A stretch of 64,000 nt of DNA from Leeuwenhoekiella palythoae (lineage in GTDB: Bacteria > Bacteroidota > Bacteroidia > Flavobacteriales > Flavobacteriaceae), in contig NZ_FQXT01000003.1 of assembly GCF_900130045.1 (NCBI RefSeq), positions 186,001-250,000 of the forward strand. The letters are read 5' to 3'. Both the position numbers and the translations under genes were made by a program. Under the pieces are notes generated by a model, which was not told the origin of the DNA, did not search any database, and worked only from the letters and a program-made list of their open reading frames with translations. Below are positions 18,894-25,274 of this stretch, one piece after another (position 1 is the stretch's first letter; each line of letters begins with the position of its first letter).

Positions 18894-19415
18894 TTATTCT
18901 TTTTTATTTCTTTTATTCAAGTCAACATTAGAATAAAAACCTAAATCTTTTGACTTGAGCATTTTTACCCAAAAAGCAATCTGACCCGTATGATACGAAA
19001 AGTGTTCTACTAAATGAATAGTATTTCCAATACCTGAAAATTGATATCCTTGAACCTCCTTTATTTGAATTAGACGCTCATCAGAAACTTGAATTATCGT
19101 CGCTTTAACTTGATTAACCGTAGTCTCCAATTTATCTAACAACTCTTGTTTTAAAAGTCCACTTTCAGTTGAAAATTCTAAATCTCTAACTCGATCATCT
19201 GAAGCTCCACTTAAAGAAGAAATCCCATATTGAGTCAGATTTCCGCATAGGTGTAAAATCAAATTGCCTATGCTGTTTAGCGTGGGATTGGGTTTTAACC
19301 AGATCTCTTCTTCTGTGATTTGAGCAAATGCAATTCTTATCATTCTAAGGTTTTCATCTAACCTGTAGAAAATATTTTTGACCAATTCTTCTCTAAAAGT
19401 TGAAGCATTATTCAT
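18894..19415 (-). CDS. DinB-superfamily (DUF1572-like) protein inside the his operon
   Basis: 173 residues, a four-helix-bundle DinB/YfiT-like protein. Likely metal-binding His residues are in [15 protein letters not shown] and [15 protein letters not shown], the usual three-His arrangement. Members are often thiol-dependent transferases or enzymes of unknown activity. The gene lies between hisA and hisF, overlaps the hisA stop by 8 bases and ends 2 bases before hisF. It must therefore be transcribed and probably translated with them. No histidine-pathway role is known to me; it could be cargo or a protective function. Confidence 0.85.
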
Positions 19416-25146: not shown

Positions 25147-25188
25147 AAACAGAAAACCCGTTTGAAAAGCTCAAACGGGTTACTGTTT
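25147..25188 (-). terminator. attenuator hairpin of the his operon
   Basis: Core perfect stem of 11 base pairs (25155-25165 with 25171-25181; 5-base loop), extended by a second 6-bp block (25147-25152 with 25183-25188, AAACAG/CTGTTT). The minus strand ends GGGTTTTCTGTTT, giving a U-rich exit. It lies 30-70 bases downstream of the leader peptide stop and upstream of hisG. The leader segment CTCAAGCGAGG (25221-25231) can pair with CCCGTTTGAG (25170-25179), the 5' arm of this hairpin. That provides an antiterminator. Confidence 0.88.
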
Positions 25189-25217
25189 TTTATACGTCAA
25201 TTATATATACAACATCT

Positions 25218-25274
25218 TTACCTCGCTTGAGTGCGTGAATAAAAATGATGATGATGTAATGCTGTTTTTCTCAT
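25218..25274 (-). CDS. hisL: his operon leader peptide (four consecutive His codons)
   Basis: ATG at 25274 opens an 18-codon frame ending in TAA at 25218-25220. It translates as MRKTALHHHHFYSRTQAR, with His at residues 7-10. The four tandem His codons, the short length, the position upstream of hisG and the hairpin that follows make it a classical attenuation leader peptide. When charged tRNA-His is scarce the ribosome would stall at residues 7-10, leaving 25221-25231 free to pair with the 5' arm of the attenuator. When His is plentiful it would reach the stop, cover that segment and let the terminator form. Seen directly in sequence; the mechanism is inferred from the enterobacterial paradigm. 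Confidence 0.93.
   Translation of the reverse strand: MRKTALHHHHFYSRTQAR

Follow-up and report, generated by a model that had tools for sequence, protein, structure and literature searches.

A putative translation-coupled attenuator with a four-histidine leader peptide upstream of the his operon of Leeuwenhoekiella palythoae

A protector (1:2) hairpin is found in the textbook attenuators of his and trp operons but not in every attenuator. The his leader of E. coli and Salmonella combines a short open reading frame (ORF) containing a run of His codons with an intrinsic terminator and an alternative antiterminator, and uses the ribosome as the sensor (PMC3896937). For his genes, RNA attenuators are described in Proteobacteria, whereas Firmicutes and Actinobacteria are described as using T-boxes (PMC9413887). 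At the ilvBNC attenuator of C. glutamicum, the mRNA starts one nucleotide from the leader start codon, loss of that codon lowers expression by 80%, and the proposed model includes an anti-antiterminator hairpin (PMC11857589). Closer to the organism studied here, the Bacteroid-trp motif (RF01692) is listed among candidate cis-regulatory RNAs of Bacteroidetes (PMC2864571), and a 2021 study describes a structured element in the 5' region of hisG in F. psychrophilum that occurs in other Flavobacteriaceae genera and has no Rfam match, together with "strong clues" of leader-peptide attenuation at amino acid operons (PMC9723704). Searches limited to an open-access library showed no worked-out his attenuator from the Bacteroidota; PMC4833913 cites a comparative study of 2010 (doi 10.1134/S0026893310010164) that may cover his attenuators of this phylum.

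The window analyzed here, by which we mean the whole 64-kb stretch of L. palythoae DNA, carries a candidate attenuator whose parts all lie on the minus strand, in the order promoter box, leader, terminator, and hisG. The features are as follows.

25291-25284, minus strand: predicted promoter -7 box, TAAATTCG, matching the consensus TAnnTTTG at 5 of 6 fixed positions.
25274-25218, minus strand: leader peptide ORF, MRKTALHHHHFYSRTQAR plus stop, 18 codons (from sequence; ATG start in 88/88 distinct near-relative sequences).
25256-25245, minus strand: four consecutive His codons, the putative sensor (from sequence).
25231-25220, minus strand: candidate antiterminator segment, CTCAAGCGAGGT, overlapping the final leader codons and the stop codon (RNAduplex, RNAalifold).
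25181-25155, minus strand: intrinsic terminator hairpin, AACCCGTTTGAG-ctt-TTCAAACGGGTT (fold, -14.9 kcal/mol; conservation).
25154-25147, minus strand: T-rich tract of the terminator, TTCTGTTT (from sequence).
25112-24252, minus strand: hisG, the first structural gene (Pfam PF01634, 9.4e-48; PF08029, 5.7e-29).
24230-17513, minus strand: remaining operon, comprising hisD, hisC, hisB (with HAD domain), hisH, hisA, a DUF1572/DinB-like gene, hisF, and hisIE (ORFs and Pfam).

The identities of hisC and hisH, and of hisA versus hisF among the two His_biosynth genes, are probable assignments from family and position. The DUF1572/DinB-like gene that Pfam places within the operon, between hisA and hisF, occupies positions 18894-19415 of the window on the minus strand.

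In simple terms, the feature is a tiny gene with four His codons that probably lets the cell shut off its his genes when histidine is plentiful. We regard it as highly probable, judging from the locus and its relatives, that the region controls the his operon by transcription attenuation coupled to translation. This reading of leader and terminator, first put forward in a preliminary description, is supported because conservation, pairing that is kept between families, and ribosome geometry all fit it. The window shares the His-run ORF, the terminator, and the antiterminator with the E. coli/Salmonella his leader, and the ribosome would presumably serve as the sensor here as well. The two differ in that leaders of the window's clade carry three to four His as a rule versus seven in E. 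coli/Salmonella, and in that no conserved protector hairpin was found for the window and its start is predicted to be near-leaderless. We take the E. coli/Salmonella leader to be the Rfam family His_leader (RF00514), to which the window gave no match at the gathering score or at E values up to 10. The Bacteroid-trp motif, presumably a trp leader with Trp codons, belongs to another operon and likewise had no match in the window. Across Rfam families, the window gave five matches up to an E value of 10, all far below gathering scores, and none to the T-box riboswitch. As far as the account of the F. psychrophilum element goes, it resembles the present locus in gene and in family (Flavobacteriaceae) but describes no peptide, helix, or mechanism (PMC9723704). 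The preliminary description had also argued for the value of a worked example in a flavobacterium; its parts are laid out here, although that hisG 5' element is an earlier hint of one.

The 18-codon frame with four His codons ahead of hisG was recovered at 25274-25218 of the minus strand, just as first described. Among ATG-started ORFs of 6 to 45 codons in the window, the his leader (along with a longer in-frame start of the same ORF) is the sole case containing HHHH; two TTG-started ORFs contain it, and three shuffles of the window yielded none. The leader region also folds more stably than its dinucleotide shuffles (z = -3.8), none of which (0/200) was equally stable.

Conservation was assessed in 94 hisG loci, consisting of the window counted twice (L001, L082), 80 genome-contig loci, and 12 more genomes of the genus, partly of the same species. 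The 80 contig loci are the best 80 of at least 509 confirmed and are mostly from Flavobacteriaceae, so that the set leans toward close relatives. The nearest named relatives belong to Leeuwenhoekiella, with HisG identities of 90 to 92% in the first four. The 94 loci reduce to 88 distinct upstream sequences, the window's own included. The preliminary description had proposed aligning relatives as a check on covariation and on conservation of the His codons, and the latter was borne out by a leader before hisG in 88/88 sequences. Of the 94 loci, 93 passed a filter requiring three or more clustered His; the exception is L093, whose leader, MKRNIINRHHFSPRNQTR, has two. The longest His run was three in 55 sequences, four in 31, and two in 2, and His is kept while its codon varies (266 CAT and 27 CAC across the 88 sequences). 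A strong hairpin with a T-rich tail stands between leader and hisG in every one of the 88, and the terminator arm ACCCGTTTGA is equally universal.

The end of the leader peptide is informative in its own right. In L013, L022, and L027, a TAG replaces CAG and cuts the peptide to 14 codons, and in L076 one missing base shifts the frame of the C-terminal peptide; the RNA segment ..GCGAGG is kept in all four. Because the RNA persists in these sequences with a lost or frameshifted peptide end, the QAR ending appears to reflect a constraint on the RNA. As natural variants, the short leaders of L013, L022, and L027 hint that the cell can do without the C-terminal peptide. These sequences also bear on the suggestion that the ORF encodes a conserved small protein acting in trans, with the terminator merely ending its mRNA. 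Such a protein could explain why ORF length and His content are conserved, but it is scarcely credible given the four sequences that lose or frameshift the C terminus while retaining the RNA, and given a peptide that, apart from its His run, varies greatly within the phylum.

The intrinsic terminator downstream of the leader was confirmed at 25181-25155. It is separated from the leader ORF by a spacer of 36 nt and from hisG by 42 nt. Its exact pattern is found at a single place in the 4.03-Mb genome, and the idea that it is a common genomic repeat was rejected on that ground. The codons T-QAR-stop (25231-25220) are the partner of the terminator 5' arm, forming 11 bp with one bulge (A25223) and one G-U pair (G25226-U25175); the pairing of 10 bp noted originally therefore holds and is extended by U25220-A25180. 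RNAduplex scores this helix at -15.5 kcal/mol, whereas shuffles average close to -7 kcal/mol, and equally good shuffles numbered 0/200 and 1/500 in two runs. Antiterminator and terminator are mutually exclusive, as the 5' arm is common to both. Three elements of a his/trp-type attenuator are present, namely, a short ORF rich in codons for the end product, an intrinsic terminator, and an antiterminator exclusive with it.

When 81 distinct near-relative leaders were aligned (L032 excluded, its terminator having been mis-picked) and the nascent RNA was folded up to the terminator loop with RNAalifold, the sole structure predicted was a helix in which the end of the leader ORF pairs with the terminator 5' arm. 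Of the eight pairs in this consensus helix, seven are compatible in every sequence that has no gap there and one is compatible in 79/81. A textbook four-segment attenuator, in which the His codons of an untranslated leader would fold into a 1:2 protector hairpin and superattenuation would result, is a doubtful alternative. The minimum-energy fold of the window would accommodate it by pairing the His codons with the region after the stop codon, but that hairpin belongs to the single-sequence fold and was rejected as a conserved feature because RNAalifold predicts no structure before the terminator in the 81 aligned leaders. Folding of the nascent RNA also argues against it, since in the ribosome-free RNA of the window the terminator arm still prefers an upstream partner (P = 0.90), and this probability exceeds 0.5 in 73/137 leaders. 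The label "classical" in the preliminary description was therefore too strong. Because no conserved protector hairpin was found, the predicted design of the attenuator is one of two alternative helices rather than four segments.

The promoter bears on how a ribosome would load onto the leader. The TAnnTTTG box was placed at -12 to -5, following the description in PMC9723704. In the window the box ends 9 nt before the leader ATG, which predicts a transcription start at about 25279 and a 5' untranslated region (UTR) of about 5 nt; no clear -33 element was seen upstream of the leader by inspection of the sequence. Among near relatives, the best box ends 6 to 10 nt before the leader ATG in 84/88 sequences, predicting 5' UTRs of about 2 to 6 nt, and a box score of at least 5 of 6 was reached in 88/88 sequences versus 27/87 in windows 100 nt further upstream. 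The gap between box and start is more varied in 57 broad leaders (L107, L147, and L167 excluded), being 16 to 27 nt in 31, 5 to 13 nt in 16, and other values in 10. Among the F. psychrophilum mRNAs whose starts have been mapped, leaderless ones make up only 5.5% (PMC9723704), and 5' UTRs shorter than 10 nt account for about 3.7% in B. thetaiotaomicron (PMC7366714). It is possible that a near-leaderless start accounts for the absent Shine-Dalgarno sequence. In its predicted near-leaderless start, the window resembles the C. glutamicum ilvBNC leader, which differs in coming from an actinobacterium and in having an anti-antiterminator hairpin (PMC11857589).

The sequence of events that we infer for the attenuator is the following. 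RNA polymerase would begin transcription just a few bases upstream of the leader AUG, so that a ribosome could load as the 5' end emerges. With charged His-tRNA available, the ribosome would reach the stop codon and cover 25231-25220; with that segment covered, the terminator at 25181-25155 would form, and transcription would end before hisG. With His-tRNA scarce, the ribosome would stall at the His codons and leave 25231-25220 free to capture the emerging 5' arm of the terminator, which would then not form in time, and the operon would be transcribed.

The geometry of the leaders was interpreted on the assumption that the ribosome footprint reaches 12 nt past the first A-site base. A total of 137 leaders were scored, 132 of which had a duplex of -9 kcal/mol or better (L032, L147, and L167 were excluded here and from constrained folding). 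In 132/132, the distance from the first base of the first His codon to the start of the antiterminator is 17 nt or more, with medians of 22 nt for near and 25 nt for broad leaders, and the His codons of the window begin 25 to 16 nt upstream of the antiterminator segment. The end of the antiterminator core falls between -10 and +15 nt from the first base of the stop codon in 83/83 near and 47/49 broad leaders. These distances fit a model in which the antiterminator stays exposed while a ribosome is stalled at the first His but is masked by one that has reached the stop codon. With the terminator half made and the free RNA folded, upstream pairing of the 5' arm exceeded 0.5 in 137/137 leaders under a His stall, in 1/137 with the ribosome at the stop codon, and in the 73/137 noted above with no ribosome. 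The background of this test is high, with foreign tails exceeding 0.5 in 53% and shuffled tails in 37% (488 trials each), compared with 61/61 for own tails (L147 and L167 excluded). At equilibrium, the finished RNA favors the terminator whatever the position of the ribosome (mean P of 0.85 to 0.96), and the switch must therefore be kinetic.

The comparison was widened with HisG searches that found matches in 47/79 genomes of the order and 120/138 of the phylum, from which 80 upstream regions were taken; the order search supplied 36 of them and the phylum search a further 44. Of the order matches, 10 were left out, nine because they came from reduced genomes of family f15 and one because the gene was split; the phylum matches left out were 12 with identities of at least 38% and 49 with identities no higher than 32%. 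The upstream region of L105 is a truncated contig. A His-rich short ORF precedes hisG in 71 of the 80 phylum loci versus 7/80 on the antisense strand and a mean of 5.3/80 in shuffles, and because of these backgrounds a few of the 71 may be due to chance. The leader and terminator sequences change between families yet often still pair, as in CTGCTAAGACGG/CCGTCTGAGTAA, CCACCACGGC/GGCTGTGGTGA, and CGCGGTAGGCTG/GGCTTACCGCA.

Pairing was evaluated in 63 representatives, comprising 52 of the 80 phylum loci (hairpin of -9 kcal/mol or better) and 11 of the 88 near relatives. The phylum loci omitted were L107 (leader mis-picked), L128 (terminator mis-picked), six with hairpins weaker than -9 kcal/mol (L149, L150, L152, L161, L170, and L172), and 20 lacking a leader or terminator pick. 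The mean duplex energy was -14.8 kcal/mol, and z fell below -2 relative to shuffled leaders in 51/63; the 12 duplexes that missed this value include those of the near relatives L006, L071, and L076. A leader's own terminator arm beat the mean of foreign arms in 60/63 representatives, although 470/3142 foreign arms matched the own arm in pairing strength, and rows with no such foreign arm numbered only 9/63. As for covariation, pairing is kept despite sequence change between families, but the 81-leader alignment within the family contains no double-sided changes of the antiterminator helix, only one-sided ones. The within-family helix is nearly invariant, and the support comes from the comparison between families. 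On these comparisons, the his attenuator is very likely functional and one of a set across the phylum.

The scheme is not uniform across the phylum, because no terminator was found in 8 of the phylum leader loci and only a weak hairpin in 6 more; eight of these 14 belong to family f34. His-rich short ORFs without a credible intrinsic terminator precede hisG in L149 to L152 (family f16) and in L135 and L140 (family f21). Seven f34 loci (L162, L163, L165, L169, L170, L172, and L175) have very His-rich hisG leaders (e.g., MNRKNLHTTHLHHGVHHLHQGHHHA), an unpicked terminator or a trivial hairpin, and then a spacer with about 4 to 9% G and 15 to 29% C; perhaps these leaders belong to a Rho-type attenuator. 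In these seven loci and L161, the -7 box ends 4 to 5 nt before the likely leader start in 7/8, with the start codon next to the box chosen by eye. Five of the seven leaders with this gap have GTG starts, and the box of L175 fits only 4 of 6 positions. The spacing predicts a leaderless leader mRNA in f34.

The f34 leaders raise the question of whether the leader ribosome in the window might alter access to hisG or to a Rho site rather than act on an intrinsic terminator. Such translational or Rho control would suit the low-G spacers of f34 and their missing or trivial hairpins, but it is very unlikely for the window and its near relatives, where the strong hairpin with its T-rich tail is universal and is paired by the leader. 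Attenuation at the intrinsic terminator is the reading we retain for them.

In the same L. palythoae genome, leader-like ORFs rich in Phe, Trp, and Ile/Val/Leu and followed by terminators lie before pheA (MSNVLYFYNRYYFFFFWKEMGPL; L176), trpE (MKNKTVNTWWWISQQ; L177), and ilvD (MKTAAILVRSISVINYS; L179), respectively, the genes having been found by Pfam family. The antiterminator pairing of pheA stands out (6/500 shuffles as good) and that of ilvD is weak (z of -1.7, 30/500 shuffles as good); at trpE no such pairing was seen (z of -0.5, 154/500 shuffles as good).

The mechanism proposed here is of a known kind; what deserves testing is its apparent lack of a protector hairpin and its predicted near-leaderless start. 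The locus provides a fully laid-out candidate attenuator in a phylum without Shine-Dalgarno starts, with relatives in several families whose leaders and terminators pair despite changed sequence. We tentatively hypothesize, with somewhat less than even confidence, that a minimal attenuator of two helices controls his operons across the Bacteroidota, with a leader peptide often made from a leaderless or nearly leaderless mRNA, and that f34 seems to sense histidine in the same way but with no intrinsic terminator. Two points become directly testable, the leaderless translation of Bacteroidota leader ORFs and the read-through of an attenuator without a protector when it is untranslated. If the hypothesis is true, loss of the start codon would lead to read-through, the opposite of textbook superattenuation, and the problem of loading a ribosome onto the leader would be solved in a phylum that does without Shine-Dalgarno initiation.
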